This document shows, piece after piece, positions 1,118 to 25,802 of a DNA stretch of 27,937 nucleotides. How positions within the stretch are numbered: the first letter of the stretch is position 1; every line of letters begins with the position of its first letter. This DNA comes from a virus. Under the pieces are notes generated by a model. It was given only the letters and a program-made list of their open reading frames with translations, had not been told where the DNA came from and did not search any database. Position numbers and translations under genes: made by a program. The stretch spans positions 1-27,937 of the IMG/VR virus record IMGVR_UViG_3300011116_000478. One strand, written 5' to 3'.

Positions 1118-3532
1118 CTACTCGGTATCGCTCCAATATTTTGCCCTAACAAGTTCCCCGGTTACCTTATCAATTTTACCAATCTTTAAGGCTGCGGGTA
1201 CGGTAAATTCCCTGTATATACCTGATACATCTCGAATAGTTACCTTAATCTCCATAGCTTCCCTCACTTGATTTGCTAAATGTTCGTGTCCAGATTTGTA
1301 CGAGAAAAGTATTGAGTCATGAATCTGGGAGTGAAGACGGAAAGATTCAGGGTTAGGTAGTGCGATCTCATAGAATACTCTTAGGAAAGCTTCATTCAAT
1401 GTGCGCGCGTTAAGAGATTGCGGACAGTGGGCGACATAAGAATTAAGGTCAGATTTGTTCGTATCAGGTTTTCCAAAACAGTATCTTGTCCAGTCGCCCG
1501 CTTCAATATATTCTCTAGGGTTGTAAGTTCTTTCATTATATTCTGTATGGTGAAAAGCGCGGCTGGATAACTTGCGGGATGTTCCAATTTCGTTAATGAC
1601 GCTGACATAATAAGCTCCTTTAATCTTAGGATAAGTTTTGTGAAATGTATTCAATAAGTGTTCTGCTATTTTCCTCGGGTCAGATTCAGATAAGCCGAGT
1701 AGTTTCTTAGCTTCCCAGATCTTATCCAGTCCCATGGTGTCAATCAGGACTCCTGGTCCCATATTATAATTAGCTCCATGGTTGACTCGTTTTGCAAGAT
1801 CCCGTAGTTTCTTATCTTTAGTCTTTCCGGTAGTGTCATCATAGATCTGATCATATGGCACACCAAAGAATGCTGAAGCATTGACTGAGTGAAAATCTTT
1901 TGTACCGCTAACTGCTTTGATGAGAGCCTCGTCTCCTGAAATGTTTGCAGTATCTCGTGACTCTGCCTGTTCCAGATCACACTCTGCAAGAAAGAAACCG
2001 TCTGGCGCTTCCACAGTTTGTTTAACCTCCGGCCCACGTGGAATGTTTTGTATTTGTAGTCCTGTCCAGAAGTGGTGCTCTCTACTAGCAAGCCTTCCGG
2101 TGTCTGTTCCGTGCGGATTAAGAGCATAGAGTATGAATCCAAAGAACTCTTTAGCTCCTCCATTTCCTTTTGAGTCAGCATCTTTATCTGTCCTTAAATA
2201 GGTTGTTGCAAGTTTACGCCAGCCACGAATGTCAAGAATCTTAGAAAGAATTAGATTATTCAGAGGATGTCTGAGCATCGCTTTCTTGAGATCTTTCTCA
2301 TTTGAGGAATCAATATCTCCACAGCCTAGAATTTTAAGTAAGGTCTTAACTTGTATAGGTGATCCAGGATTAAAACCTTTTGCGCCTACCATAGTCTGTA
2401 CTGATGCAAGGGCCGGAGCTTCTAGAGAATCAACTTCTTTCCGGGCTTCAATCAATCTTTCCTGATTCCTCTTTAGTCCTGTCATTTCTGCCAGTAGACA
2501 AGGATATACAAGAGGGAACTCTAATGTATAGTTTCTCCTTGCCCAGTCTGGTATTGATAACATTTGTTGTATCCAGACATTTGCTGTGGCCCAGGTGTCA
2601 AGTGCATTGTACTTATAGTATTCATGCAGGTCATTAGTTTCTGCAAGATCCTTCCAGTATACCACTTTTCGTAGGAAGAAGGAGTTAAGGAAAGCAAGAT
2701 CCTTTGGTAGTTCGGAGTAGTATGAGTGAAACAAATGTGCAGTATCCCAAAGCCAGTTGGTAGGTGCAGCATTATATCGAAGGAGGTAGGAACAGTCGTA
2801 CTTTCCGTTTTGGAAGATCTTTTGAACAGGTAGCGCATTTATTGTCCTCATCACTGCGAGGTTAAAAGATGAGTCTATAGGTAGAACATAAGAACGAGTA
2901 GTAATATCACCGGACTCAGAGATATAAACACCGGTATAGCCAATGCAACGAATAGACAAAGGGCTACGAAAAGTTTCAATGTCCGCAGCAATAGCGTAGG
3001 CCTCAGATAAGTCTTGAATAGTTTCAGCATGATTAGTTCCATCTACCAAAGTCCAATGAAAATCTGTGGCCTCACTCCAGGCTTCCGGGGCAGTAACCTT
3101 TGATATAAATCTCTGTGCAATGAATTTACCGTAGGATACCGTGAACAACTGCTTGAGTGGACTAATGAAAACGATTTCCAAAGTCTTGTACGTGAATAAG
3201 GAACCTTGGTAGTCTGATAAACTAGGGTTGGACTTACTATTACCAGATAACTCAAGGAGTTTGGAAAGGATTGGTATAGAGGTTGAAACAACTCTTGTAA
3301 CTGATCTTTTCGCACAATACATCTCCAGATGAGACAGAAGAGAGATTGGTTCTACGCAGACGTAAGTGTTCAGCCCATTGAACATTCCCTTTAGGTGAGG
3401 GATGTATGCTTTATCTTCTAGTGTACCTAGGAATAGAGCATTGTCACCTTTTTGGGAAGCTTCTTTCTGAGGAACTGCCGCGCGCATCTGTGCAGTCAGA
3501 GCTGCTAGTTTAGATTTCAATGGCGTTGTCAT
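1118..3532 (-). CDS. polA: Family A DNA polymerase (PolA-like) with 3'-5' exonuclease
   Basis: Phage replicative DNA polymerase of about 804 residues. The 3'-5' exonuclease has motif I DIET at about residues 184-187, motif II NGKYD at about 242-246 and motif III YNALD at about 308-312. The polymerase has motif A DLEQAESR (catalytic Asp about 519), motif B with R577, K581 and Y589, and motif C HDS at about 738-740. Two positions are unusual: the motif B residue that is Phe or Tyr in most relatives is His (NHGANY), and motif C is HDS rather than the usual HDE. The open frame extends 7 codons upstream to a TTG at 3553, but the ATG at 3532 has a GGAG site 10 nt upstream inside that extension, so I use the ATG. 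A 5'-3' exonuclease domain is not seen. Confidence 0.95.
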   Translation of the reverse strand: MTTPLKSKLAALTAQMRAAVPQKEASQKGDNALFLGTLEDKAYIPHLKGMFNGLNTYVCVEPISLLSHLEMYCAKRSVTRVVSTSIPILSKLLELSGNSKSNPSLSDYQGSLFTYKTLEIVFISPLKQLFTVSYGKFIAQRFISKVTAPEAWSEATDFHWTLVDGTNHAETIQDLSEAYAIAADIETFRSPLSIRCIGYTGVYISESGDITTRSYVLPIDSSFNLAVMRTINALPVQKIFQNGKYDCSYLLRYNAAPTNWLWDTAHLFHSYYSELPKDLAFLNSFFLRKVVYWKDLAETNDLHEYYKYNALDTWATANVWIQQMLSIPDWARRNYTLEFPLVYPCLLAEMTGLKRNQERLIEARKEVDSLEAPALASVQTMVGAKGFNPGSPIQVKTLLKILGCGDIDSSNEKDLKKAMLRHPLNNLILSKILDIRGWRKLATTYLRTDKDADSKGNGGAKEFFGFILYALNPHGTDTGRLASREHHFWTGLQIQNIPRGPEVKQTVEAPDGFFLAECDLEQAESRDTANISGDEALIKAVSGTKDFHSVNASAFFGVPYDQIYDDTTGKTKDKKLRDLAKRVNHGANYNMGPGVLIDTMGLDKIWEAKKLLGLSESDPRKIAEHLLNTFHKTYPKIKGAYYVSVINEIGTSRKLSSRAFHHTEYNERTYNPREYIEAGDWTRYCFGKPDTNKSDLNSYVAHCPQSLNARTLNEAFLRVFYEIALPNPESFRLHSQIHDSILFSYKSGHEHLANQVREAMEIKVTIRDVSGIYREFTVPAALKIGKIDKVTGELVRAKYWSDTE

Positions 3533-3561
3533 ATAGGTTAGATCTCCTATCAAATAATTAT

Positions 3562-3580
3562 AAGGCCCACTACAGGCCCT
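3562..3580 (-). terminator. Possible weak hairpin ahead of polA
   Basis: On the minus strand AGGGCC and GGCCTT can pair (6 bp, one G-U) around a 7-nt loop, followed by the AT-rich ATAATTATTT. It falls between the 82-aa gene and the polymerase and could attenuate transcription. The T tract is poor, so this is a weak call. Confidence 0.3.
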
Positions 3581-3585
3581 AGGTA

Positions 3586-3834
3586 TTATTCGAAAGCTGG
3601 GATTGACTTTAACAATCTACTTGTAACCATGAAACAAAACTTCTGTCCAGTTGAATCCTTGAGAATAAAATCAGCTGTAGAATTTCCCGCTTTAGTGCCA
3701 TTCTTAACTACAACAATATCTATAATCTCAATTGGTAGATAGTCAGGCTCCTTGTATACAAAACCTTGAGCTACTGCATCTTCAACAGATTCACAGATAG
3801 TAATTTTAAGAGATGCGTGAATAGCGTTTATCAT
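3586..3834 (-). CDS. 82-aa hypothetical protein
   Basis: A small protein upstream of the polymerase gene, with GGAG 7 nt before the ATG. The N-terminus, MINAIHASLKITICESVEDA, and the middle (IEIIDIVVVKNGTKAGNST) alternate hydrophobic and polar residues in a way that suggests a compact beta-rich fold. A DFILKDSTGQKFCFMV segment near the end looks like two strands joined by a turn. No catalytic motif or membrane segment is visible and I do not recognise the family. It follows a strong hairpin that may separate its expression from that of the gene upstream. Confidence 0.7.
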   Translation of the reverse strand: MINAIHASLKITICESVEDAVAQGFVYKEPDYLPIEIIDIVVVKNGTKAGNSTADFILKDSTGQKFCFMVTSRLLKSIPAFE

Positions 3835-3846
3835 AATAATCTCCAG

Positions 3847-3883
3847 ATAAAAGGGAACCCACTAAGAACTTAATCTTAGTGGG
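3847..3883 (-). terminator. Strong hairpin, probable intrinsic terminator or attenuator
   Basis: A perfect 10-bp inverted repeat, CCCACTAAGA (3858-3867) and TCTTAGTGGG (3874-3883), surrounds a 6-nt loop. On the minus strand it is followed by TTCCCTTTTAT. It lies just after the 147-aa gene and just before the ribosome site of the 82-aa gene. The moderate T tract suggests partial termination, which would lower expression of the polymerase relative to the genes before it. Confidence 0.7.
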
Positions 3884-3909
3884 TGCTAGATGTTAGATCA
3901 TCGAGATCA

Positions 3910-4353
3910 TCAGATCACAGAGATATCAACCAGTGTTGTGTACTTCCGTGTCTTTTCCGTGTTCGAGCGCAAACCTGTAATGATAAGAACTTCGCAACCT
4001 TGGATCTCGTTCATCAAATCACGGTTAGCTTTAGCACCAAACTTTTCAGCAGCTGCTTTCATAACCTTCTTGAAATCACCTTGGCCGAATTCCTTATCCA
4101 ACAGGAATGCAATACTGGTAGATGCACCTTTGGACAGGGGAGTGTCAGATGAGTCAGCCAGCTCGATTGTTTCATCTGCTACAAAAGTTGCTTCGATTGC
4201 AGGATGTGTACCAATCTTCTTTTGTTCCAGCTTGATGGTAACCTTGTGAGTCCCAGCAGGGAAAGGCTTGAATTCTGGAGCATCTGCCAAGTCATCGAGT
4301 GTGCCGTCAAGCAATGCATTAATGTCGAAAGTGGATTGATCGATAGTAGACAT
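3910..4353 (-). CDS. Possible phage single-stranded DNA-binding protein
   Basis: A 147-aa acidic protein that opens with a short acidic segment (LLDGTLDDLADAPEF) followed by a beta-rich core, FPAGTHKVTIKLEQKKIG, and a helical part around residues 95-125 (FGQGDFKKVMKAAAEKFGAK). This layout resembles small conserved proteins that many phages place beside Sak4-type ATPases, polymerases and Cas4-like nucleases, some annotated as ssDNA-binding proteins. No classical OB-fold signature can be proven by eye. An AAAG-type ribosome site and a strong hairpin just downstream suggest it is made in larger amounts than the polymerase. Reality of the gene is secure; function is inferred mainly from context. 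Confidence 0.55.
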   Translation of the reverse strand: MSTIDQSTFDINALLDGTLDDLADAPEFKPFPAGTHKVTIKLEQKKIGTHPAIEATFVADETIELADSSDTPLSKGASTSIAFLLDKEFGQGDFKKVMKAAAEKFGAKANRDLMNEIQGCEVLIITGLRSNTEKTRKYTTLVDISVI

Positions 4354-4375
4354 GATAGTAGCTTTCTATAAAAGG

Positions 4376-4756
4376 TTATTTACGGGAGATTGAGCGCAGT
4401 GTAATTACTGCAAGAATATTCCAAGCTGCATGTGCAAGATGTGTAATGCCTGTTTGAGGATCTTTACTATCTTCACTTTGCATATCTTCAAGTAGGTGTC
4501 TAATCATCGCTTCATAATATCGTTCCTTTCCATTAGGTACTTCTATCCAACCATTCTTGGTGTATTTATTTGCACCAAAAGTTCCAACCTTAACTACCTC
4601 TTTAAGTGCAAGAACAAACTTACCGAGGACAAGAAAAGGTAACTGTTTACCTGCATCAAGTTTAGCTCCAGGTTCATGAGGATCTGTTCCTAGAGGATCT
4701 TTCTCGTGAGAGATTGATGCTAGATGTTGTAATTCTAAATCATCAAGTTCAGGCAT
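4376..4756 (-). CDS. MazZ-like dATP/dGTP pyrophosphohydrolase (DUF5664-like)
   Basis: Predicted all-alpha nucleoside triphosphate pyrophosphohydrolase of 126 residues. The family signature is visible in order: LDAGKQLPFLVLGKFVLALKE, then VGTFGANKYTKNGW, then RYYEAMIRHLLED, then THLAHAAWNILA. Acidic residues in the second half (EDMQSED, DPQTG) would coordinate Mg2+ as in MazG-type enzymes. In other phages such proteins hydrolyse dATP or dGTP, either to balance pools or to supply dZ-genome synthesis. The frame opens 4 codons earlier, at 4768, but the second ATG has GGAG 7 nt upstream and lies 1 nt after the previous stop, so I use 4756. No PurZ is present in the window, so a Z-genome role is only a possibility. 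Confidence 0.75.
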   Translation of the reverse strand: MPELDDLELQHLASISHEKDPLGTDPHEPGAKLDAGKQLPFLVLGKFVLALKEVVKVGTFGANKYTKNGWIEVPNGKERYYEAMIRHLLEDMQSEDSKDPQTGITHLAHAAWNILAVITLRSISRK

Positions 4757-4757
4757 T

Positions 4758-5639
4758 TTAGGCTCCATTCATCTTAGATCTCAAAGCTGCCAATCCGGTG
4801 AGAGCTTTACTTCCTTGCTCATTAGTCTGAGTTGTAGAAACTGTAGGTTTCTCAATCTGCCCGGTAAAGATAGGCAGTAAAGATAATTTACCTGAGCTTG
4901 CAATATCAAAATCAGATCTGGATCTTGTAAGGAATCCATTACTTGCAGTAGATGTTGAGTAAGCTCGGTGAGTTTTATTCTTCACCTCAGTATAAATCAC
5001 ATGATCAAAAGCTGAGGGAAATGTAGCAGACATTCCAGCAGATCCAAAAGATGGAACAAGTTTAGTTGTCTTATCTTCTAGTTCAGCTTCTTGACATTGA
5101 CAAGTTACAATAAGATTATATCTAGCTCCTTGGAATTGGGATTTAAAAAATTCTGTATACTTTCTAAGTGCTCCCCAATCATCTCTTTCAGGTTTTGTAT
5201 CCAGAGACTTATCTTTCATTGTATAGGAAAGAATAGAATATGAAAGTTGAGTAGCTGTATCAAGAACTACAATATCTTTAGGCCCGAGTTTATTGAAATC
5301 TACCTCTGTTATAATTGCATCTAGATCTTTAGCACAGATAGGACAACCTGACTTTCCGTGAGCATCACAAATCTTAGCTGTACCTTTGTTGAAAAGGATA
5401 AGAAGAGTTTGTGCAGCAATTGGATAAGAAGCTGAGTCGGGAATGTTAATAAGATCTACACGATCTTGAGCTTCAGGTGAGAGTTTGAGAAGAGTTTCAG
5501 CCGCATTCTCTGTATTTATCCAGATTAGATTATACCCATGCTCTGCCATTTCAGCAGCTAATGTTGATTTACCTGAACCTGAGAGACCTAAGATTAGCAC
5601 TCTATGAGTGGATGCTGGTTTATATTGTGATAGTTTCAT
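4758..5639 (-). CDS. Sak4/RecA-like AAA ATPase
   Basis: A 293-aa ATPase of the RecA-core type. Walker A is GLSGSGKST at residues 18-26, and Walker B is IVVLD ending at D127. The segment LIVTCQCQ at about 177 fits the following polar-sensor strand. An insertion at 91-102 holds CDAHGKSGCPIC, four possible zinc ligands (C91, H94, C99, C102). The protein matches phage Sak4-type proteins, which promote single-strand annealing or strand exchange together with a partner ssDNA-binding protein. It overlaps the preceding gene by 4 nt (ATGA), showing tight coupling, and it precedes the MazZ-like gene. The ATPase call is firm; the recombinase role follows from family and from the adjacent Cas4-like nuclease. 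Confidence 0.85.
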   Translation of the reverse strand: MKLSQYKPASTHRVLILGLSGSGKSTLAAEMAEHGYNLIWINTENAAETLLKLSPEAQDRVDLINIPDSASYPIAAQTLLILFNKGTAKICDAHGKSGCPICAKDLDAIITEVDFNKLGPKDIVVLDTATQLSYSILSYTMKDKSLDTKPERDDWGALRKYTEFFKSQFQGARYNLIVTCQCQEAELEDKTTKLVPSFGSAGMSATFPSAFDHVIYTEVKNKTHRAYSTSTASNGFLTRSRSDFDIASSGKLSLLPIFTGQIEKPTVSTTQTNEQGSKALTGLAALRSKMNGA

Positions 5640-5812
5640 GATATGTTCCTTAGTTCATGTCTGAGTTCTTCAATTGTTCTATCTACGTAGAGTCTTAAGA
5701 CTGATACGTGGGCAATATCTCTGGGTATGAAATACATAGAAGTTCTGAATCCCATACAGATTCTCAAAGCCCAAGATAATTTCTGCTGTCTCTTCTGTCT
5801 AGCAGTTGCCAT
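5636..5812 (-). CDS. 58-aa basic hypothetical protein
   Basis: A small, strongly basic protein starting MATARQKRQQKLSWALR, lying between the nuclease and the Sak4-like ATPase. Its end overlaps the next start by 4 nt. The open frame begins at a TTG at 5824, but the first ATG, at 5812, has a GGAA site about 7 nt upstream and begins right after the nuclease stop, so I use it. The C-terminal half (VDRTIEELRHELRNIS) looks like one amphipathic helix. It may bind nucleic acid or link the two recombination proteins; no family is recognised. Confidence 0.6.
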   Translation of the reverse strand: MATARQKRQQKLSWALRICMGFRTSMYFIPRDIAHVSVLRLYVDRTIEELRHELRNIS

Positions 5813-9110: not shown

Positions 9111-10802
9111 TTATTTAGATCCTCTTGTTAGGAATGAATAGTCTTTACCTTCTTCTAATTTACCCTGGAATTGCAAGGCTTTCTCCTGAAGTGTGTTACC
9201 TTTAATTCTTTGAGATAGAATCCCACCAACAAACATCTCAGGTTCACCAATAACATATAACTCTTCGCGCGCACGAGTTACAGCGGTATAGATAAGTTCC
9301 CGAGACATCATAGTATTATGGGACTGATGAGTTACGAAGAACACTTTGCGAAATTCCGAGCCCTGGCTGCGATGAACGGTTAATACGTACCCTAGATTTA
9401 AGGTATTGATATCTGCCGCCTTATCTACTTTAACTGTTACACCTGAATCTAGCATCTGGATTGTAAGAACATGGGATGCTTGACGAACACGATCCCCGGA
9501 TTCTGAGCTAGAAACCTGGGAGAGAAGAAAATCCATATCATCATCACTGACTGCGTCAACTCCGGGAGGTGTTGGATCATATCCCCAATAATCTAAAGAT
9601 TTCGAGGCGGGTAAAGGAGTTGCACCAGTGTAAGATGGATTAGGGTTAATCTCCAGGATTGTTGCATCTTCCTTATCATATAGAATCTTATCTCCAGGGG
9701 AAAGGTAATATTTGTTAAATCCTTCAATAATCTCATAGGTTGTGGCACCCCGTTTCTTAGAGAGATGATTGGCAAGGATTTTGTTAAGTTCATCTGTACC
9801 GAAAGATTTGTTAAAAGGGATAAGGATGATATCTTCTTCTGGATCATATAGAGCTTTCTCCTCTGCTTGAATAAAGAACATACCTGTTGTTTGGAGAGCA
9901 GTCTCAGGGGAAATCTTTTTCTTCCAGGGATGAATGGTGAGACCAGTACTATTCCAATCTTTTAGCTCTGTCGGAGGAATTGGATTACCAGAGAGAATTC
10001 TATGTGCCAAAGAAATAATAGGAGACTCCAATGCTTGACGGTAGACCTCGGTAAGTTCGACAACTGGAAGTTGGAGAAGTTTGAATCCTAAGATCGCTGG
10101 TCCGAATACTGGCGGGAGTTGTTGGATATCACCGAGAAAGATTTCCTGCGGATTATGTGGAGTAGCATCTTGTACTTCCTTGTAAAGATCAGTTCCAATC
10201 ATAGATGACTCTTCAAATATGATTGTATGGATTGATGAGGGTAGAGGATTAGAAGAATTCCGGGCAGGTTCAAAGGACATCTTAGTTTTTGTATCCCCTG
10301 TGATCGGATCAATAACTTCTGTATATACAGGTTGGTATTCTAGAAGTTTATGGATTGTTATGCAATTGTTTTGTAGATCTGTTGGCATATTCCGGCGGAT
10401 ATTAGCAACTGCGCGGCGAGTATATGCAACAATGACGATTCCTGGGGAAGATTGTGGAAGATATTTATGTCCTTCAGGAGATAAGATTCCAGCGCGGCCA
10501 GATTGGATAAGGGAAGAAACCACTGCCTTTTGGGAAGTTGTTTTACCCGTACCGGCCGCACCGATTAGGACACAGGATCTACCTTCGGTAGCTAAAGAAA
10601 CAAATTCTAGTTGTTTAGAATTCAGGGTGATTAGATTGCCATATTTGTCATAGATATGACCTTTGTCCGGGGCAGGTTCCTGAGTTGTTACGGTCGGTTC
10701 ATCTTTGAGAACAATTGAAGGATTAGATCCTAAGATCTTAGATTCTTGGGAAGCTCGGATCTTATCTCGAAGCGCTGCAAGTTTTGAGATTGGTAGAGTC
10801 AT
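9111..10802 (-). CDS. SF1 DNA helicase, RecD/Dda-like
   Basis: A 563-aa superfamily 1B helicase, predicted to move 5'-3' on ssDNA and unwind duplex during replication or recombination. Motif I (Walker A) is GAAGTGKTT at residues 81-89. Motif II is IIFEESSM (E197, E198 in place of the usual DEAS). Motif III is GDIQQLPP at 224-231, motif IV has EVYRQ at about 252-256, motif V is VHRSQGSEF at about 476-484, and motif VI is TAVTRAREELYVIG at about 506. The first 60 residues are a charged, poorly conserved extension. The start overlaps the stop of a 44-aa membrane protein gene (ATGA-like) and has GAGA a few nt upstream. Motif order leaves little doubt about the class. Confidence 0.93.
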   Translation of the reverse strand: MTLPISKLAALRDKIRASQESKILGSNPSIVLKDEPTVTTQEPAPDKGHIYDKYGNLITLNSKQLEFVSLATEGRSCVLIGAAGTGKTTSQKAVVSSLIQSGRAGILSPEGHKYLPQSSPGIVIVAYTRRAVANIRRNMPTDLQNNCITIHKLLEYQPVYTEVIDPITGDTKTKMSFEPARNSSNPLPSSIHTIIFEESSMIGTDLYKEVQDATPHNPQEIFLGDIQQLPPVFGPAILGFKLLQLPVVELTEVYRQALESPIISLAHRILSGNPIPPTELKDWNSTGLTIHPWKKKISPETALQTTGMFFIQAEEKALYDPEEDIILIPFNKSFGTDELNKILANHLSKKRGATTYEIIEGFNKYYLSPGDKILYDKEDATILEINPNPSYTGATPLPASKSLDYWGYDPTPPGVDAVSDDDMDFLLSQVSSSESGDRVRQASHVLTIQMLDSGVTVKVDKAADINTLNLGYVLTVHRSQGSEFRKVFFVTHQSHNTMMSRELIYTAVTRAREELYVIGEPEMFVGGILSQRIKGNTLQEKALQFQGKLEEGKDYSFLTRGSK

Positions 10803-10933
10803 TTGATTCTCGATTCAATATTATATATAATCGCATGGATTACTGCAATTATGACCACACTCCATAACCAATTATCAGGGTAGGTTTTAGATAATAGGAA
10901 GCCTATAATGAAGAACAGAAAAGTATCAGACAT
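10799..10933 (-). CDS. 44-aa membrane protein
   Basis: A tiny gene starting MSDTFLFFIIGFLL. Two hydrophobic segments are visible, at about residues 4-14 and 22-38 (WLWSVVIIAVIHAIIY), separated by KTYPDN and followed by a basic tail ESRIK. This fits a two-pass or hairpin membrane protein. AAGG lies 9 nt before the ATG and overlaps the stop of the gene before it; its own stop overlaps the helicase start. It is holin-like in size, but the early location argues against lysis; membrane anchoring of replication or an exclusion role is possible. Confidence 0.65.
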   Translation of the reverse strand: MSDTFLFFIIGFLLSKTYPDNWLWSVVIIAVIHAIIYNIESRIK

Positions 10934-10944
10934 AGTAGGTAACC

Positions 10945-11271
10945 TTAATAAACAGATGTGAGAGGTAAAGCTCTTACAAGTGCATATCCTTCTTTATGAT
11001 CCTTATGGCATCTGAAGGAGATTGCAATTTTAGATGCTGAGAAGATACGGTCAATATCCCCTCTGTAAAAGAGAATCTGATACGTTGTTCCATTGTGGAA
11101 TACTCGCCCGGATTGGTTATAATATAGGCGAGAGAAATAATCTATATTCCAATGGTGGAGATAGTAAGATGAGAGGTCAGGGATAAGGTCAGGGGGAATT
11201 TCCCAGCAAGATGTTAAGAGAAGGGATAATGCTTTATCTTTCGGAAATGGGGCAGATCTTGGATCAGACAT
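10945..11271 (-). CDS. 108-aa hypothetical protein
   Basis: Chosen start is the ATG at 11271 (MSDPRSAPFPKDKALS), which has GGAG 7 nt upstream inside the end of the previous gene; the frame extends 14 codons further, to 11313, without support. The protein has many aromatic residues in the middle (SSYYLHHWNIDYFSRLYYN) and a beta-like second half (TTYQILFYRGDIDRIF). A CHKDHKEG segment near the end could bind metal but is not a known motif. Its stop is followed at once by the ribosome site of the 44-aa membrane protein. Function unknown. Confidence 0.65.
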   Translation of the reverse strand: MSDPRSAPFPKDKALSLLLTSCWEIPPDLIPDLSSYYLHHWNIDYFSRLYYNQSGRVFHNGTTYQILFYRGDIDRIFSASKIAISFRCHKDHKEGYALVRALPLTSVY

Positions 11272-12274
11272 TTGATTCTCCTTCTTGATTCCGGGTTCCT
11301 GCTTTCTGTGCAAGCTGATATCTTAGCCGGGCTTTCATATATAAGAACTTGGTTGGATATTGTTCAGGTCTAGGTTCAGATTCTGGTGCTGAATCAATCA
11401 TACCTTTAAGATTCGCATCTTCTACTGTGTCGGAAGCACCAAGGATTGTATAAGTACTCTTGGAGATATCTAGATCACCTAAACCAAGGAAATTCTTTTG
11501 TCTTTCTAGGGAGTGTCTGAGAACTTTGAATAGTTTATCTGAGAAGATAGATCCATATGGGATATGTTCTTCACAATGTTCCAGGAGTTCTTCAAGATCT
11601 CTACGTCTTATGGAGAATATTGATTCTTCTTTAGTTGCCCGGATTATGAGAGATTTCCAATAGTTTGCACAAGTATCTGTATGGCCAGTGAAAGGATTGA
11701 TTAGGGAGAATGTGGGGAAAGATCCTGCAACTGATGCCCAATCTGATAGTTGGATAGAATATGTTGATACATCTTTGTAAGAAGATTTAATCAGTCTTTC
11801 TAGTGCAGCTTCGCGGGATATCAGTTTTTGAGATTCATTAGCAGAGACATAACCATCAAGATGATCTTTATACGCATCTTTCCAGTTTTGTATCCAGTAC
11901 TGTATGTTCTGGAGAGTTTTAGTTTCTGGGGAGATTACATATCTAGGGAATACTTGGGAAGGATTGATTACAGTATTTAGACGGAGAAGAGTTTTGGTTA
12001 GAGATTCCATATTAAGAGCAATGATGGAATCTGTTTCTGGAGTTCTAGTTGCTGCTACTCTGAACTCAACTAATTCAGATGATCGTAGGAGGGCGAGAAA
12101 AAGTAGGTAAGAGTCGGTGGATGTTAGTTCACCTGCGGACCATTTAGAAAGATATGGGAGAAGTTTCTTCTGAGGGACTGAGAATATAGGATGGTAAGAT
12201 TCTCTAGAATATAGAGATCCAGGGAAATGTTCACAAGTGAACTCTAGAGATGAATAGGCACATAAGATTTTCAT
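11264..12274 (-). CDS. 336-aa hypothetical protein
   Basis: The largest unrecognised protein in the early block. It starts at the ATG at 12274 (MKILCAYSSLEFTCEHFPG), with AAGGA 8 nt upstream; the frame extends 11 codons further, to a TTG that lacks a ribosome site. The N-terminal 60 residues hold several aromatic, Cys and His residues. A long helical region follows, with WIQNWKDAYKDHLDGYV near residue 130 and REAALERLIKSSYKDVS near 160, then RRRDLEELLEHCEEHIPYG around 225. The C-terminus is charged. No Walker or nuclease motif is visible. The position just ahead of the helicase suggests a loader or partner, which is only inference. Confidence 0.7.
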   Translation of the reverse strand: MKILCAYSSLEFTCEHFPGSLYSRESYHPIFSVPQKKLLPYLSKWSAGELTSTDSYLLFLALLRSSELVEFRVAATRTPETDSIIALNMESLTKTLLRLNTVINPSQVFPRYVISPETKTLQNIQYWIQNWKDAYKDHLDGYVSANESQKLISREAALERLIKSSYKDVSTYSIQLSDWASVAGSFPTFSLINPFTGHTDTCANYWKSLIIRATKEESIFSIRRRDLEELLEHCEEHIPYGSIFSDKLFKVLRHSLERQKNFLGLGDLDISKSTYTILGASDTVEDANLKGMIDSAPESEPRPEQYPTKFLYMKARLRYQLAQKAGTRNQEGESNV

Positions 12275-12303: not shown

Positions 12304-12474
12304 TCAAGAGAGGTTTCTGATAAAAAGATCTTCAATATTTGTATATAGCAGATCATCCTCTGAGTATCCCACATTAAACATATCTAAATATGCAGGGAAG
12401 TAATAATATTTAGGGCACTCTGTTAGATAGGAGATGTAAATAATATTACAATATATCACATAGATGTCAGGCAT
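12304..12474 (-). CDS. 56-aa MPDIY-family protein, copy A
   Basis: Begins MPDIYVIYCNIIYISYL and continues with TECPKYYYF. The first 25 residues closely match the 58-aa protein at 12555-12731 (identical MPDIY start, IYC, then ECP and YY), and the first 8 match the protein at 13510-13665. The N-terminus is hydrophobic and aromatic; the C-terminus is acidic (YSEDDLLYTNIEDLF). Its end lies within the leader of the 336-aa gene. The ribosome site (TAAGAATCTATC) is weak, and the 80 nt before it can fold into a 9-bp stem. The copies support each other as real genes. Function unknown. Confidence 0.6.
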   Translation of the reverse strand: MPDIYVIYCNIIYISYLTECPKYYYFPAYLDMFNVGYSEDDLLYTNIEDLFIRNLS

Positions 12475-12513
12475 GATAGATTCTTAGGTAGTTTCAAAGG
12501 GCTGATACAGCCG

Positions 12514-12547
12514 GTAAAGGATCTCGGATAGAATCAAAATCCTTTAC
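12514..12547. repeat. 9-bp inverted repeat upstream of copy A
   Basis: GTAAAGGAT at 12514-12522 and ATCCTTTAC at 12539-12547 are perfect complements around a 16-nt loop. A second small stem, GGCTG/CAGCC, lies beside it at 12500-12512. Both sit in the roughly 80-nt gap between two MPDIY genes and could fold in the mRNA leader. Whether they act as an attenuator or a processing site cannot be told. Confidence 0.5.
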
Positions 12548-12554
12548 AGAAGTA

Positions 12555-12731
12555 TCAGTGAAATGTCATGTTACAGCAAAGGGCTTCTTTGAAAGAAATA
12601 TGATATGGAACATAATCTAGTGGAGATTCTAACTCATGGTACATTGTATCAGAGTTATAGTAATGTATAGGGCATTCTTGGAGATCTGATACAAATATGA
12701 GAGTGCAGTATATAAGATAAATATCTGGCAT
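12555..12731 (-). CDS. 58-aa MPDIY-family protein, copy B
   Basis: Begins MPDIYLIYCTLIFVSDL, then QECPIHYYN; clearly related to copy A (12304-12474) and, by its first 8 residues, to copy C (13510-13665). The open frame continues 21 codons upstream, to 12794, but the paralogue alignment and a GGAG site 6-7 nt before this ATG fix the start at 12731. The C-terminal half differs from copy A and ends in EALCCNMTFH. The hydrophobic first 17 residues could be a short membrane-associated helix or a buried beta strand. Function unknown. Confidence 0.7.
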   Translation of the reverse strand: MPDIYLIYCTLIFVSDLQECPIHYYNSDTMYHELESPLDYVPYHISFKEALCCNMTFH

Positions 12732-12732
12732 A

Positions 12733-12930
12733 TCATGCTCCAAAGATTGATATAAAGATTCTGGAAAAGATATCTGTACCTTCAGGAGAATCAAGATATT
12801 GTCCGAACGCTAGTACTCCTAAGATGATACATAGGTCACAGAGTAGGAGAAGGAATCTTAGAGTGTATATGATTGATTGGCGGATCATATCTTTTCTGGC
12901 TAAGGATGGGGAGTATGTGTAGCGTGTCAT
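12733..12930 (-). CDS. 65-aa membrane protein
   Basis: A small protein with a basic, polar N-terminus (MTRYTYSPSLARKDMIRQS), one long hydrophobic segment at about residues 20-43 (YTLRFLLLLCDLCIILGVLAF) and a second weak hydrophobic patch at the end (IFISIFGA). The positive charges before the first segment suggest the N-terminus stays inside. AAGGA precedes the ATG, and the start overlaps the previous stop by 1 nt (TAATG). The ribosome site of copy B of the MPDIY family overlaps its own stop, so the two are coupled. Function unknown. Confidence 0.65.
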   Translation of the reverse strand: MTRYTYSPSLARKDMIRQSIIYTLRFLLLLCDLCIILGVLAFGQYLDSPEGTDIFSRIFISIFGA

Positions 12931-13304
12931 TATATATCCTTTGAAAATAGTTTCATTTCATACTCTGCATCTTCTTGAGGATTCAACAGATCATTTTGAT
13001 ATCCGTATTCTAGAGCCTTATCTCTTTCCTCTTTTGTCATACCAACACCATTAGATTGTGCGCGGTACTTGTGATAAAGCATCTCAGGGGTTAGGATGGG
13101 TTCTGGAGATGGAGAGAATCCTAGATTATCAGCTAAGGTAGGTTTCAGAGTGATATTCGCTACTCTATGTTCTGCCTTGATATCTGAGATGAATTTACCT
13201 AGATATCTGTGTAAGGCAAAAGTATTAGATCCCGCTGGAAGGAATTTGTATAGCATCTCTAACTCAGGGAGCGTGAAATAAGGTCTGTATTTTTTAGTGC
13301 TCAT
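12930..13304 (-). CDS. 124-aa hypothetical protein
   Basis: A charged soluble protein starting MSTKKYRPYFTLPELEMLYK. The N-terminal half is helical; a proline-rich linker (SPSPEPILTPEMLYHK) divides it from a C-terminal acidic part rich in Glu, Asp and Lys (MTKEERDKALEYGYQNDLL). Its stop overlaps the next start by 1 nt. The GGAG ribosome site before the ATG is clear. I recognise no family and see no catalytic residues. Confidence 0.7.
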   Translation of the reverse strand: MSTKKYRPYFTLPELEMLYKFLPAGSNTFALHRYLGKFISDIKAEHRVANITLKPTLADNLGFSPSPEPILTPEMLYHKYRAQSNGVGMTKEERDKALEYGYQNDLLNPQEDAEYEMKLFSKDI

Positions 13305-13319
13305 GGTGATGTGATCTCC

Positions 13320-13523
13320 TTATGATGGTAGATCTAAAGAAGATTGATAGATCATCTCGGATGCAAGGGAAGATCCTACCATATCTATTAAGAATTGTTT
13401 AATCAATCGGTAAGAGTCAGATATATTTGCGGGGGAATCTTCTGATATCTCTTGTTCTATCTCAGCGAGGATAAGCGAAAGAGTGGAAGGAGATAAGAGA
13501 TCTAGAATATCAGGATGGATCAT
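13320..13523 (-). CDS. 67-aa hypothetical protein
   Basis: A small acidic, helical protein starting MIHPDILDLLSPSTLS, with AAGGA 7 nt before the ATG. Heptad-like spacing of Leu and Ile (LILAEIEQEI, then IKQFLIDMVG) suggests a coiled coil or a small helical bundle. The last 14 nt of the MPDIY copy C gene overlap its start in another frame. Function unknown. Confidence 0.65.
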   Translation of the reverse strand: MIHPDILDLLSPSTLSLILAEIEQEISEDSPANISDSYRLIKQFLIDMVGSSLASEMIYQSSLDLPS

Positions 13524-13665
13524 GATGATTCCTTCTTTCTATCAAAGAGCCAAGGACAAAAAGATTCCTATATAGGGAATCAGTATAACCAGATACCAGG
13601 GGATGATAAACAGGGATCTGATAATAAGATCTGGTTGAGTAATATATTAGGTATATATCAGGCAT
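13510..13665 (-). CDS. 51-aa MPDIY-family protein, copy C
   Basis: Begins MPDIYLIYYSTRSYY, sharing its first 8 residues with copy B (one change from copy A) but diverging afterwards into a Tyr- and Pro-containing middle and a basic tail (LIERRNHHDPS). A GGAG site lies about 11 nt before the ATG, which is longer than usual. The gene overlaps the next start by 14 nt. Without the paralogues this would be hard to call; the shared start makes it credible. Function unknown. Confidence 0.5.
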   Translation of the reverse strand: MPDIYLIYYSTRSYYQIPVYHPLVSGYTDSLYRNLFVLGSLIERRNHHDPS

Positions 13666-13671
13666 GATATG

Positions 13672-13875
13672 TTAATCTCCTGGCTCGATTTTAGGGAGAG
13701 GTCTATGTGAAATGAATTTTACAAGAGAATCAATACCTGATGCTTGATTTTGTATTGTTCTATGTGCAAGCATATTAGTATATCTCAGATCTACACCTGA
13801 TAATGTGGATGCAATCTGGGAAAGAATCTCTAATTGACCTTTAGAGATTATATAATGGTCATGAGGTAGGATCAT
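13672..13875 (-). CDS. 67-aa hypothetical protein
   Basis: A small soluble protein, starting MILPHDHYIISKGQLEILSQ, with GGAG 6 nt before the ATG and located 1 nt past the previous stop. The first half looks like a helix with regular Ile and Leu; the second half is basic (LVKFISHRPLPKIEPGD). No recognisable family. It is of the same size class as the gene at 13320-13523, but I see no clear sequence similarity between them. Confidence 0.65.
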   Translation of the reverse strand: MILPHDHYIISKGQLEILSQIASTLSGVDLRYTNMLAHRTIQNQASGIDSLVKFISHRPLPKIEPGD

Positions 13876-13876
13876 T

Positions 13877-14176
13877 TCAGTCTCCTAGGGATTCAAAATG
13901 TTTGATTGCAAGAATTAGCCAGATAATCCGGCGGACGTTTTGGAGTTCTTGTACTGGAACATTCCAATTCATTAGTTCTTCCTCTGTCCAAAATCCAACG
14001 CCGCTGATAGATATATCAAAGGAGGTTAGAATATCTTTCATCATTTGCTCATTCTTAGATTTGATTCCAGGAGTATCATATCTTGCAATATGACAAAGGA
14101 ACATTTCAGAATGTTTACAATTCTTAGATGACTCAAAAACTGCTTTGAGAAAATCTGATCTTTTCAGGTAGTGCAT
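13877..14176 (-). CDS. 99-aa hypothetical protein
   Basis: The open frame begins at 14260, but the ATG at 14176 (MHYLKRSDFLKAVFESS) has AGGAG 7 nt upstream and lies 1 nt after the DenV-like stop, so it is the likely start. The protein is mainly helical, with one Cys-His-containing stretch (NCKHSEMFLCHIARYD) at about residues 18-33 that could bind metal but lacks a known spacing. The C-terminus (RRIIWLILAIKHFESLGD) is a hydrophobic amphipathic helix. Function unknown. Confidence 0.65.
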   Translation of the reverse strand: MHYLKRSDFLKAVFESSKNCKHSEMFLCHIARYDTPGIKSKNEQMMKDILTSFDISISGVGFWTEEELMNWNVPVQELQNVRRIIWLILAIKHFESLGD

Positions 14177-14177
14177 T

Positions 14178-14609
14178 TTAGGCTCCTTTAAGGGAATGAT
14201 TGATCCAATAATCTGGAATAGGTCGATTAGTAAATCGAGGATTCGCCGGCATACGATCAATTATGCGGGAGATATTTAGAGAGATTTCGGCAGGTGTTGG
14301 CATGTAAAGATTTCGACAATCGTCAGGGAGTGAATCAAATGTTTTTGACCAATCCATGAAGGTGATATTAAAATTTCTATATAAAAGTTCTTTATATAAT
14401 TCTGAATGTCTGTAGAATAGATAAGGAATTCGGGAGACAAAGAATTTAATATGACCTGATCCTAAAGTATATTCCGTGGGTGCATCAGGATAGAAACTCT
14501 TCAATCTACCTGTTAGTACTCCGTTAGGAATCCTGATAAGTTCCCGATATTCTGCCATAAGATGCTTATCACATAACAGGGAAGGATCAATTAGGTTTAT
14601 ACGTGTCAT
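14178..14609 (-). CDS. denV: Pyrimidine-dimer DNA glycosylase, T4 endonuclease V-like
   Basis: The N-terminus, MTRINLIDPSLLCDKHLMAE, aligns residue for residue with T4 endonuclease V, including the catalytic Thr2 (N-terminal amine nucleophile after Met removal), Arg3, His16, Arg22 and the catalytic Glu23 in AEYREL. The later GSGHIKFFV segment at about residues 50-58 corresponds to GAGHVTFF in the T4 enzyme. At 143 residues it matches the family length. The enzyme cuts the glycosyl bond at UV-induced cyclobutane pyrimidine dimers and then nicks the abasic site. It is the second gene after the promoter at 14885-14913, so it is made early. GGAATATTCT precedes the start. Confidence 0.93.
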   Translation of the reverse strand: MTRINLIDPSLLCDKHLMAEYRELIRIPNGVLTGRLKSFYPDAPTEYTLGSGHIKFFVSRIPYLFYRHSELYKELLYRNFNITFMDWSKTFDSLPDDCRNLYMPTPAEISLNISRIIDRMPANPRFTNRPIPDYWINHSLKGA

Positions 14610-14623
14610 TAGAATATTCCTTT

Positions 14624-14821
14624 CTATCTAGAAGGGTGTAAGAAATTATAGGGAACTTCTACTAGTTCCCATCCTGTTTGCTCATGCGATTTAATTAGCC
14701 ATTTATAAGCATATTTTTTAGGGAATCTGTTCCATTTGTTAATAGCAGGATCAAGTGAGGCAGGAATCCTGATATCGCGTGTAGCTGGATATGCTGGATT
14801 GAATCTAAATTGTATGATCAT
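14624..14821 (-). CDS. 65-aa basic hypothetical protein
   Basis: First gene after the promoter at 14885-14913. It starts MIIQFRFNPAYPATRDIRIP and is rich in aromatic and basic residues, with a WNRFPKKYAYKWLIKSH core that suggests a small nucleic-acid-binding fold. The ribosome site is GAGAATCAA just before the ATG, the same sequence that precedes the helicase and other genes here. Function unknown; first position suggests early, strong expression, perhaps in host takeover. Confidence 0.7.
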   Translation of the reverse strand: MIIQFRFNPAYPATRDIRIPASLDPAINKWNRFPKKYAYKWLIKSHEQTGWELVEVPYNFLHPSR

Positions 14822-14884
14822 TTGATTCTCTTTTATGAAAGATTTAGAAATCTCATAACTAGACTTCTAGACTGCGGTCTGCCT

Positions 14885-16524: not shown

Positions 16525-17139
16525 ATGCTAAATTTAACAGATAAGACTTTTGGCCGTCTAACTGTCCTGGAAAAATCTTCTCAGAGACAAGGTAAATCTA
16601 TCATGTGGAAATGTTCTTGTAAGTGCGGGAATAAGGAAATTTTAGTATCTGCAAGAGATCTAGTACATTACAATAGAAAAGGTTGTGGAGTATGTCACGA
16701 TACAAAACATCCCTTATATAGCATATGGAGAGGTATAATTTCAAGATGTGAAGATCTTACAAATAAAGATTATGGGGGTAGAGGCATTAAAATTCATAAA
16801 GACTGGAAAGATGAATTTTTAAATTTTGTAGAATATGTAGGAGATCGCCCAACTTTACATCACTCCATAGATAGGATAGATGTTAATGGAAACTATGAAC
16901 CTGGAAATGTTAGATGGGCTACAGCTTTTGAGCAGGCCAGAAATAAAAGAGATTTAGTGATCGGACTTACAGATGAACAAATCTTAGAGATATATTTAGA
17001 TAAAAATTTACCAGAAAAAATTGCAGAAAAATTTTCTATATCTTTAAAGACTGTAAGAAATATAAAATGTAGAAATTATAGTGACAGAGCTTCAACAGTT
17101 ATTATAAATTATTTACTTAGGAATATAAGAAGGCCCTGA
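16525..17139 (+). CDS. Free-standing HNH endonuclease, probable homing enzyme
   Basis: A 204-aa protein with an N-terminal zinc-ribbon-like part (WKCSCKCGN at about 28-36 and CGVCH at 54-58), a central segment YGGRGIKIHKDW at about 83-94, then the HNH-like core HHSIDRIDVNGNYEPGNVRW at about 112-131 and AFEQARNKR. A C-terminal helix-turn-helix (about 149-184, LPEKIAEKFSISLKTVRNIK) probably contacts DNA. Such proteins are common free-standing mobile endonucleases in phages. The gene is visibly more AT-rich than its neighbours, with many AAA, ATA and TTA codons, and it sits between the early and late blocks directly ahead of the terminase, a usual homing site. GGAG lies 10 nt before the ATG. Confidence 0.88.
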   Translation: MLNLTDKTFGRLTVLEKSSQRQGKSIMWKCSCKCGNKEILVSARDLVHYNRKGCGVCHDTKHPLYSIWRGIISRCEDLTNKDYGGRGIKIHKDWKDEFLNFVEYVGDRPTLHHSIDRIDVNGNYEPGNVRWATAFEQARNKRDLVIGLTDEQILEIYLDKNLPEKIAEKFSISLKTVRNIKCRNYSDRASTVIINYLLRNIRRP

Positions 17140-22179: not shown

Positions 22180-22464
22180 ATGGCTATCCAAGCTACAGGA
22201 CCTTTTACATCTTGGTCTCTATCTGATCAGGAGATTATTTCCGGGTCAGTTCTTTCCTTTACACAGAAACAAGTTATCCAGAATCAGCGAGCCCAAGTTG
22301 CTGAACAGATCCTAGGACTTGTATTTGATCCTCTGAATCCTGTTCAATTTGCACAAGATGACGCTCACCTAAAAGGTCAACTTGCTGCATTTAACTATCT
22401 TCTCCTTCTGTCTGATGAATCTGAGACTGCATTGAAAGCTATGCAATCCGCTCAGAACTCTTAA
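22180..22464 (+). CDS. 94-aa head-region hypothetical protein
   Basis: Starts at the base directly after the portal stop, with AAGGA inside the end of the portal gene. It begins MAIQATGPFTSWSLSDQEII and is mostly helical, with a hydrophobic run (AAFNYLLLLSDESETALKAM) near the end. Its position between portal and scaffold suggests a minor head or assembly protein. No family is recognised. Confidence 0.75.
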   Translation: MAIQATGPFTSWSLSDQEIISGSVLSFTQKQVIQNQRAQVAEQILGLVFDPLNPVQFAQDDAHLKGQLAAFNYLLLLSDESETALKAMQSAQNS

Positions 22465-22494
22465 CTTCTTAATCAATCCTTCTAGGAAACAATC

Positions 22495-23271
22495 ATGTCT
22501 ATCTTCCAAACTCTTTTCGGTACAACTCCAGCTACTCCTCAGAATCCTGCACCATCTGCACCAACAGGTGTTGCTAATCCTGGACAACCTTTGCCAGGAA
22601 CTCAGTCTTCACAGCAAACTGCTCCTAATGGTACAGTTCCTTCACAATCACAAGTGATGAACCCTGATCCAAATGCTCAAACTCAGACGACAGCGTCCCC
22701 ATTGGAGGCATTCAAAGACGTTTGGCAAACTCCAGCTACTGATCCAAATGCTGCAACTCCTCAAGGAATGTTTGCTAATTTAGATCCAGCAAAGCTGATG
22801 CAATCTGCCAAGCAAGTAGATTTCACAAAAGCTGTAACTCCTGAGATGCTTGCTCAGATTCAGGCTGGTGGGCCAGAAGCAATGTCTGCAATGGTTCAAG
22901 CTATGAATAATGTTGCACAAATGGGTTACGCTCAGTCAGCTATTGCAACTACAAAGATTGTTGAACAAGCACTTGCTAAATCCAAAGAGCAGTATGATGC
23001 TCAACTTCCAACAATGGTAAAGAAGTTTTCTGCTACAGAAGCTACACTTGCCAACAATCCGCTCCTTCAAAATCCTGCTATTCGCCCAGTTTACGAAGCC
23101 GTACAATCCCAACTTTTGCTTAAGAATCCTAATGCAACAACTGCCGAGATTCAGCAACAAGTTGGTGACTTCTTCTCTGCAATGGGAGCTGCGTTTGCCC
23201 CACCTGCACCTCAAACAGCTCAACAAAAAGCTGCAAGGACTGAAGAAGATTGGAGCAAATTTCTGGGCTAA
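22495..23271 (+). CDS. Probable capsid scaffold protein
   Basis: A 258-aa protein with a Pro/Gln/Thr/Ala-rich, probably disordered first third (for example PATPQNPAPSAPTG), then long helices (for example TPEMLAQIQAGGPEAMSAMV at about 117-136) and an acidic/basic short end (ARTEEDWSKFLG). These features and the place just ahead of the capsid genes fit a scaffolding protein, whose C-terminal residues usually touch the coat. No protease motif is visible. AGGAAACAATC precedes the ATG. Alternative: a minor head protein. Confidence 0.72.
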   Translation: MSIFQTLFGTTPATPQNPAPSAPTGVANPGQPLPGTQSSQQTAPNGTVPSQSQVMNPDPNAQTQTTASPLEAFKDVWQTPATDPNAATPQGMFANLDPAKLMQSAKQVDFTKAVTPEMLAQIQAGGPEAMSAMVQAMNNVAQMGYAQSAIATTKIVEQALAKSKEQYDAQLPTMVKKFSATEATLANNPLLQNPAIRPVYEAVQSQLLLKNPNATTAEIQQQVGDFFSAMGAAFAPPAPQTAQQKAARTEEDWSKFLG

Positions 23272-23294
23272 CATTTTATATTTATCAACATATT

Positions 23295-23308
23295 CTCCCT
23301 AATGGGAG
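23295..23308 (+). promoter_or_regulatory. Small hairpin in the leader of the decoration gene
   Basis: CTCCC and GGGAG pair around a TAAT loop in the 50-nt gap after the scaffold stop, a few nt before an AAAGGAAA ribosome site. It may stabilise a processed 5' end or limit read-through. There is no T tract, so a terminator is unlikely. Confidence 0.4.
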
Positions 23309-23323
23309 GCAAAGGAAATTATC

Positions 23324-23983
23324 ATGGGTATTCTAAAAAGTGCTGTCTATGACGGCTCACTGTTGCGTCAAATGCAACAAGGTGATGTTCTTGCAGGTGC
23401 AGAAATTATTCCTGCTACTATTGCAACCAATGCGATCACTATTACAGGTGCTCAACTTGGTTCTGGTATCATTCAGCGAACAACTACTGGCGCTGGTACT
23501 GATACTATTGATACTGCTGCAAACATTATTGCTGCTCTTATCTCTGGTATCGGTTTGACTGGGATTCAAAATGGTACAACGTGGCGCTGTAAGTGGATTC
23601 AGAATGCTGCGTTTGCTATTACAGTTGCGGCAACAGCTAATACAGGTGTTACAGTTACTAGTGGCACTATTAATGCATCGTCGGTAAAAGATTTCTTGGT
23701 TACTGTTGTTAATGGTACTCCAGCTTCTTCTGTCCAAGCTACTACTGTTAATGCATCTGCTGTGATTTCTGGCCTTACTGGTGCACAAGTTGCTGCTCTG
23801 TCTGTAGGTATGATTGTTACCAATGCTGTTGCTGGTTTGCAAGGTACTACAATTATCTCTCTTAACCAAGCTGCTGGTACAGTTACTCTTTCTGGTAACG
23901 CTAATGCTACCAACACAACTGCTGTAACTGTGAATTTCTCTCCAGTTATTACAGTGGCTGGTATTGGCCAAGGCTTGCTGTAA
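23324..23983 (+). CDS. Probable head decoration/structural protein
   Basis: A 219-aa protein rich in Thr, Ala, Val and Gly with alternating beta pattern. Its first two thirds (for example ITITGAQLGSGIIQRTTTGA, then NAAFAITVAATANTGVTVTSG) resemble decoration-type proteins encoded just ahead of phage major capsid genes. The last third (SVGMIVTNAVAGLQGTTIIS, then AGTVTLSGNANAT) is a repeat-like beta domain also suggested in the capsid protein. Codon choice (GGT, GCT, ACT, CGT) is strongly biased, as for highly expressed genes. An AAAGGAAA site precedes the ATG. It probably sits on the outer capsid surface. Confidence 0.68.
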   Translation: MGILKSAVYDGSLLRQMQQGDVLAGAEIIPATIATNAITITGAQLGSGIIQRTTTGAGTDTIDTAANIIAALISGIGLTGIQNGTTWRCKWIQNAAFAITVAATANTGVTVTSGTINASSVKDFLVTVVNGTPASSVQATTVNASAVISGLTGAQVAALSVGMIVTNAVAGLQGTTIISLNQAAGTVTLSGNANATNTTAVTVNFSPVITVAGIGQGLL

Positions 23984-24026
23984 TACCTACTCTCCCACTA
24001 TTCTATCTATATAAAGGAAAACTATC

Positions 24027-25259
24027 ATGTCTACTGGTATCTTTACCTCTGGCGTTCTTACCCAAGATCTTGCCAAAAAGTCATTTGCATCGATGATTAC
24101 TCGTCTGATGCCAAATGGTACAGCTCCTCTATTTGGTATGACTTCAATGTTGCCAAGTGATACAGCTGTGCAAACTGAACATGGCTTCTTTACAAAGACC
24201 ATGTTGTTTCCACAATTGACAATTGGCGCTGGCGGTCAAACTTCTACCGACACAACTTTCACAGTTACTTCTACAACTAACGTGCTGCCTGGCATGATTA
24301 TGCGTGTAGATTCTTCTGGTGAAAACATTATCATCAACAGTGTTATCTCTGGTACACAAGTTTCTGTGACTCGTGCAGTTGGTACAGTTGCCGCCGCTTC
24401 GATTGCTGCTACAGTTAACTGTTACCAAGTTGGTAATGCTTACGAAGAAGCTTCGCTGCGTCCACAGTCTCTGATTATCAATCCAGTTCGTGTTACTAAT
24501 CTGACTCAGATTTTCCGTAACACTTGGGCAATCTCTGATACAGTTCGTACAACAATGATGATTGCAGGCGAAACTAACGTCGCTGAATCTCGTCAAGATT
24601 GTGCTGGTTTCCATGCAGCTGATATTGAGAAAGCTCTGTTCTTTGGTCAGAAATCTCAAGGTGTTCGTAATGGTCAACCTTTCCGCACAATGGATGGTTT
24701 GATCAATATTGTCGGGAATCTGTCTTACTATCCATCATATTATTCTGCTGTTAACGTGAATACTGCTGGTGGTACTACAAACTACACCCAGCTCGAAGGT
24801 TTCCTGGATCCAGTATTTAACCAAGCTACCGATCCTAAGGTTGCCAATGAACGTGTGTTGTTTGTCGGTGGTACAGCCAAACGAGTGATTAATAACATTG
24901 GCCGATTGAATGGTACTTACTACATCGTTGATGGTCAAACTTCTTACGGTTTGCAATTCAGTACTTTCAAGACTGCTCGTGGTACTTTCCGTATGGTTGA
25001 GCATCCACTGTTTAACTCGAATACTTCTTGGTCTAAGATGGCAGTTGCAGTAGATCTGTCTACATTCCGAGTTGCTTATTTGGGCGATCGTAAAACTCAG
25101 AACAAGGAATTTAATATTCCTGAAGCTGGTGATATGGATGTGTCTGATAATGGTATCGACGCAGTTGGTGGTACTCTGACAACTGAAATGACTTGTGTTG
25201 TTAAGAATCCTCCAGCTAACTCGATCATCTACAATCTGACAGCCGCCGCAGCAGGCTGA
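24027..25259 (+). CDS. Major capsid protein
   Basis: A 410-aa coat protein. The N-terminus, MSTGIFTSGVLTQDLAKKSF, leads to a beta-rich part at about 70-135 that could be an inserted domain (TSTDTTFTVTSTTNVLPGMI). Then comes a region typical of SU10/DUF5309-type coats: ESRQDCAGFHAADIEKALFF, GQKSQGVRNGQP and MDGLI at about 188-232. The C-terminal part contains FSTFKTARGTFRMVEHPLFN and ends in TAAAAG. Codon bias is the strongest in the window, as expected for the most abundant virion protein. AAAGGAAAA precedes the start. Position after scaffold and decoration genes is canonical. Confidence 0.88.
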   Translation: MSTGIFTSGVLTQDLAKKSFASMITRLMPNGTAPLFGMTSMLPSDTAVQTEHGFFTKTMLFPQLTIGAGGQTSTDTTFTVTSTTNVLPGMIMRVDSSGENIIINSVISGTQVSVTRAVGTVAAASIAATVNCYQVGNAYEEASLRPQSLIINPVRVTNLTQIFRNTWAISDTVRTTMMIAGETNVAESRQDCAGFHAADIEKALFFGQKSQGVRNGQPFRTMDGLINIVGNLSYYPSYYSAVNVNTAGGTTNYTQLEGFLDPVFNQATDPKVANERVLFVGGTAKRVINNIGRLNGTYYIVDGQTSYGLQFSTFKTARGTFRMVEHPLFNSNTSWSKMAVAVDLSTFRVAYLGDRKTQNKEFNIPEAGDMDVSDNGIDAVGGTLTTEMTCVVKNPPANSIIYNLTAAAAG

Positions 25260-25270
25260 TTTTCAAACCC

Positions 25271-25301
25271 TTGGGCTAGGTATATGAGGTATCTAGCCCA
25301 A
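25271..25301 (+). terminator. Strong hairpin after the major capsid gene
   Basis: TTGGGCTAGGTA (25271-25282) pairs with TATCTAGCCCAA (25290-25301), 12 bp with one G-T, around a 7-nt loop. It begins 11 nt after the capsid stop. No T tract follows (ATCTAACAATCC), so it is more likely an mRNA-stabilising or processing structure, or a leaky terminator, than a full stop. Confidence 0.6.
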
Positions 25302-25326
25302 TCTAACAATCCTTAGGAAAACAATC

Positions 25327-25722: not shown

Positions 25723-25749
25723 TGCCTAGATTCTAATCTATATAAATCT

Positions 25750-25789
25750 AAGAGGGGCTTGTGGAATCTAATTCCCGGTCCCTTTTCTT
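25750..25789 (+). terminator. Intrinsic terminator candidate
   Basis: AAGAGGGGC (25750-25758) can pair with GTCCCTTTT (25778-25786), 9 bp with two G-U pairs, and an inner stem GGAAT/ATTCC (25763-25767 with 25771-25775) stacks inside. TTTTCTT closes the 3' side. It lies between the 131-aa gene and the neck gene and could reduce expression of the tail genes relative to capsid. Confidence 0.6.
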
Positions 25790-25802
25790 ACGGGTAAATA
25801 TT

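Follow-up and report, generated by a model that had tools for sequence, protein, structure and literature searches.

Short ORFs opening with almost the same residues occur three times in a 27,937-base IMG/VR virus record (hereafter the window, meaning the whole stretch of DNA analyzed), which raises the question of whether they are members of a genuine protein family and, if so, what such a family does for the phage. As a preliminary description of this DNA had reported, the three lie on the same strand and begin with MPDIYVIY (copy A) or MPDIYLIY (copies B and C). Their positions and those of the surrounding features are compiled in Table 1.

Genomic setting and gene starts

The window lacks end repeats and is thus probably a fragment. 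Its leftward genes include those for a family A DNA polymerase, a Dda/RecD-like helicase, a PD-(D/E)XK nuclease, and a pyrimidine dimer DNA glycosylase of the T4 endonuclease V type (14178-14609, - strand), the last of which is found in the same small-gene block as A-C; terminase, portal, and major head protein genes are among the rightward genes. The helicase has its nearest counterparts in Polaromonas phage Tiera, EBPR podovirus 3, and the PaP2/119X group. A, B, and C belong to the leftward (replication-side) block, where a conserved 336-aa gene and the helicase gene follow them downstream; the head genes are encoded on the other strand. Judging from this position beside the replication genes, the region is presumably expressed early. 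Between the two gene blocks, a 204-aa ORF (16525-17139, + strand) gave a sub-threshold match to CapR and, judged by eye, resembles an HNH/AP2-type homing endonuclease. A 22-nt sequence (reverse complement GAGAATCAAATG...) was found in four copies (10790-10811, 11259-11280, 13863-13884, and 14809-14830), at least one of them at a gene start, and is probably a recurrent ribosome-binding region.

Table 1. Features around the three MPDIY ORFs, in window coordinates
Feature	Coordinates	Strand	Remarks
336-aa conserved gene (MKILC...)	11264..12274	-	Downstream of A; synteny anchor; no family match
Copy A, 56 aa, MPDIYVIYCNIIYISYLTECPKYYY...	12304..12474	-	MPDIYVIY start at 12474; pI ~4.05, net charge ~-6.5
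80-nt B-A spacer with strong hairpin	12475..12554	-	Core stem GTAAAGGAT/ATCCTTTAC; outer stem CTGATAC/GTATCAG extends into the end of B
Copy B, 58 aa, MPDIYLIYCTLIFVSDLQECPIHYY...	12555..12731	-	MPDIYLIY start at 12731; pI ~4.5, net charge ~-7 to -7.4
65-aa predicted single-span membrane protein	12733..12930	-	Between C and B; maximum 19-residue hydropathy 2.51; 89% identical in the relative
124-aa gene, KKYRPYF N-terminus	12930..13304	-	Also in more distant phages
67-aa gene	13320..13523	-	Start overlaps the end of C by 14 nt; no family match; 87% identical in the relative
Copy C, 51 aa, MPDIYLIYYSTRSYYQIPVYHPLVSGY...	13510..13665	-	MPDIYLIY start at 13665; near neutral (~-0.2), Cys-free

The start of B is probably an ATG internal to a 79-aa ORF that opens with TTG. 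This ATG is favored by the GGAG ahead of it, by the stop codon of the membrane protein gene just before it, and by the fact that the paralogy begins exactly there. The same GGAG and adjoining stop suggest that B may be translationally coupled to the membrane protein gene. An AGGAG precedes C, and no clear Shine-Dalgarno sequence was seen upstream of A.

Kinship among the copies

Among the 321 ATG starts of the window ORFs of at least 30 aa, A, B, and C were the only ones that formed pairs alike at six or more of residues 2-8, and a comparable pair of any kind arose in just one of 200 Markov-simulated windows. Compared over 25 codons, A and B have 5 identical, 11 synonymously different, and 9 nonsynonymously different codons, and the corresponding numbers for B and C over eight codons are 3, 5, and 0. 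As the common codons differ mainly at silent positions, the kinship lies at the level of the protein rather than in a repeat of the DNA. A and B are both Tyr-rich and acidic, and the spacing of Cys, Pro, and Tyr ascribed to them in the preliminary description was recovered, with C9, C20-P21, and Y24-Y25 in both proteins.

Conservation among the copies is highest at residues 1-9. A and B are ~49% identical, with similarity extending through residue 25, and their tail part by itself is significantly similar (shuffle p of 0.0002, or 0.03 with B of the relative introduced below). The tails of A and C are weakly similar (shuffle p of 0.005, gapped alignment), and no similarity was detectable between those of B and C (shuffle p of 0.58), which have only the first eight residues in common. 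The C-terminal halves have diverged between the paralogues, as had been noticed at the outset. Altogether, we regard A, B, and C, by the evidence of their sequences, as a real paralogous mini-family.

The copies had been described as interleaved with unrelated genes and hence as something other than the simple outcome of one tandem duplication. The first part of this description holds for C, which is separated from B by the 67-aa, 124-aa, and 65-aa genes, and for C the second part is plausible as well. Neither part applies to A and B, which are direct neighbors with the spacer between them.

Constraint and distribution

When A, B, C, and the 67-aa protein were each used singly to scan viral contigs, and likewise a strict DNA pattern, a single relative was recovered, IMGVR_UViG_3300011116_000564. 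It bears all three genes in identical order and number, with no extra copy in either record; conservation of the MPDIY frame in a related phage had been set beforehand as a check on the family, and the frame is kept in all three genes. The helicase of this relative is ~86% identical to that of the window. The DNA of the two phages is 99% identical between window positions 1721-5642 (22296-26217 in the reverse complement) and positions 13726-17647 of the relative, a part of the replication block, and mostly 78-96% identical elsewhere, a mosaic pattern that suggests recent recombination between them.

We counted substitutions between the window and this relative, a single pairwise comparison, by the method of Nei and Gojobori. 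A is identical in protein sequence, with five silent and no amino-acid substitutions (dN/dS ~0), and C is 96% identical, with ten silent and two amino-acid changes (dN/dS ~0.05). B has diverged most as a protein (65.5% identical), with 24.4 silent and 25.6 amino-acid changes against 34 and 140 sites, respectively (dN of 0.21, dS saturated, dN/dS ~0.08). The saturated silent sites in B point to an old divergence or an exchange of alleles, not to positive selection. Neighboring genes gave dN/dS of 0.04-0.19, the 336-aa gene being at 0.04, so that the earlier proposal of genes "under rapid change" is contradicted by the values for A, B, and C. The excess of silent changes was significant for each gene (p of ~3e-4 for A, ~5e-6 for B, and ~2e-5 for C) in a simple site-count binomial that ignores transition bias, and the three tests agree. 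This excess makes it very probable that all three frames are translated and under constraint, as read from one pairwise comparison of the two known genomes. As the A copies are identical between the phages, and A and B are far less alike, the duplications are older than the divergence of the two phages.

These results also bear on the idea that the resemblance arose by chance or from a duplicated DNA element that is incidentally open in frame. The starts do form a three-copy direct repeat of 29 nt (69-83% identical), but its copies differ from one another mostly by synonymous changes, and comparison with the relative reveals a strong surplus of silent changes in each of the three frames. Together with the simulation, these observations rule the idea out, and we consider it hardly conceivable.

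A second trace of selection may lie in the hairpin between B and A. The predicted RNA fold was more stable than those of shuffled sequences, with z of -4.8 for the spacer of the window and -3.4 for that of the relative. Both stem arms and the leader to the start codon of A are identical in the two phages; the loop differs and contains a 6-nt gap. Identical arms around a diverged loop suggest that the stem is under selection. An intrinsic terminator was rejected, as neither strand has a T-run, and so was a mobile element, as the pattern recurred in viral contigs only in the one relative. A search of the region against Rfam returned nothing credible. As a guess, the hairpin could be an RNase III processing site or an mRNA-stabilizing element.

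With the 336-aa gene as an anchor, we fetched 37 viral loci, one of which was the known relative. The anchor protein is 43-99% identical across these loci, has no match in Pfam or PHROGs, and is possibly a core gene product of this phage group. No MPDIY-type ORF was found in the flanks examined of the 36 other loci, some of which are short. Several of these loci keep the 124-aa gene at varying distances from the anchor, which implies that the interval between the two genes is a variable island. Thus, the flanking genes persist in distant phages, but A, B, and C do not in the flanks examined. In three of the related phages, paired Ala-rich repeat proteins (AANAADAAYAAA-type) are encoded just upstream of the 336-aa gene (L034, 3525-5319; L051, 2420-3852; L056, 3145-5327). 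No homologues of two flanking anchor genes were detectable in the stretches read of PaP2, Tiera, EBPR podovirus 3, and Aeromonas phage P5.

Searches of curated families (Pfam, PHROGs, NCBIfam, and PDB sequences) found no relatives of A, B, or C, the sole match being a sub-threshold one of C to phrog_25165 (E of 0.17). In tblastn against phages, A and B had no matches and C had only noise at E of 2-3, and A had no matches against plasmids. A family profile run in six frames over the loci fetched by then retrieved the members and otherwise only weak matches, the best of which (E of 0.01-0.2) fell on loci that the MPDIY pattern had selected in the first place. Ten pattern matches in genome contigs were dismissed as chance-like: none extends the A/B pattern, several are very short, and several are inside long unrelated ORFs. 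By these searches, A-C appear to be an orphan family of a familiar kind, found only in this phage and one close relative.

Possible roles and comparison with known systems

We tentatively favor, at a probability of roughly 0.4, that A, B, and C are one narrow-lineage coding family that modulates host proteins through a common N-terminal element and specialized tails. The duplications would be older than the split of the two carriers, with A and B having separated from each other more recently and C either having split off earlier or having had its body replaced; the three would sit in an accessory small-gene island of the replication-side block. Their small size, island position, and restriction to a single lineage match the type of accessory gene screened in PMC12373910. 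The segment MPDIY[VL]IYC, in which hydrophobic and aromatic residues alternate, is likely a strand or docking segment, through which the proteins would bind one another or partners of a common kind. Differing tails (those of A and B being acidic and bearing Cys pairs, that of C neutral and Cys-free) might then direct them to different targets. The likely use would be modulation of host proteins in infection, by takeover or counter-defense, rather than a structural or enzymatic one; that role, already offered in the preliminary description, is possible but a guess. Two points run against parts of this proposal. Two structure predictions of very low confidence (mean pLDDT of 54.7 and 43.9) tend toward a helix, not a strand, at the N-terminus, and genes in an arms race do not usually show a low dN/dS.

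The three proteins could instead serve the replication block of the phage itself, as subunits or modulators of the helicase, the polymerase, or the 336-aa protein. Their position in that block and a purifying selection matching that on the 336-aa gene are in line with such a role, but relatives that have the helicase and the 336-aa gene without A-C in the flanks examined imply that A-C are dispensable for that machinery there, and we consider the role rather unlikely. It is also improbable, in our view, that A, B, and C act together with the 65-aa membrane protein, for example in lysis timing or superinfection exclusion: B begins right after the stop codon of the membrane protein gene and the N-terminus of A is hydrophobic over ~14 residues, but hydropathy over 19 residues peaks at only 0.7-1.3 in A, B, and C, compared with 2.5 in the membrane protein, and the link between them is one of adjacency.

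No more probable than the membrane connection is that otherwise unrelated bodies carry MPDIY[VL]IY as an N-terminal tag that sorts them, for instance into the head or to a membrane or replication site. The peak of conservation at the N-terminus and the restriction of the B/C likeness to the first eight residues agree with a tag, as does the precedent of the T4 internal proteins, diverse defense proteins in which only the capsid-targeting sequence is conserved (PMC3012670; PMC12373910). On the other hand, residues 10-25 are also common to A and B, and the tails of A and C are weakly similar, implying that the bodies are partly homologous; the genes are on the replication side and run opposite to the head genes; and the proteins scanned, from a window that is a fragment, included no identifiable prohead protease. 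A bolder reading is that MPDIY[VL]IYC is a transferable N-terminal docking or delivery signal of this phage lineage that carries varied effector tails to one site, be it in the virion or in the infected cell, and so parallels T4 capsid targeting in an unrelated podovirus-like group. We hold this to be very unlikely. If it were true, the signal would offer a route to further effectors of these phages; if not, A-C are one of many lineage-specific accessory families. In either case, an unannotated phage lineage gains with A-C a small orphan family that is clearly real, and even ORFs of 51-58 aa are under strong selection there.

Among known systems, the acidic DNA-mimic anti-restriction proteins of the Ocr type resemble A and B in being small and strongly acidic (net charge of -6.5 to -7.4); the charge does not extend to C, and A-C have no sequence match to this type. 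The anti-CRISPR operon pattern, an acr gene with an adjacent helix-turn-helix aca gene, was not found in a Pfam search of the neighbors (12930-13304, 13320-13523, and 13672-13875), which gave no helix-turn-helix or other match, though small aca-like proteins outside Pfam could escape such a search. The T-even internal proteins (Ip1-Ip3) are, like A-C, several small proteins with a short common N-terminal segment and diverged bodies. Ip1-Ip3 enter the head and are injected along with the phage DNA; A-C differ in lying in a replication-side block, in the body partly common to A and B, and in lacking a sequence match to known families. The partly common body and the replication-side genes leave membership of A-C in the T4-type internal proteins unsupported at the sequence level. 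The small accessory or host-takeover proteins (screened in PMC12373910) are, like A-C, very small, confined to one lineage, located in a variable island, and without known domains. What distinguishes A-C from them is the joint retention, under purifying selection, of three paralogous genes, one of which is preceded by a conserved hairpin.
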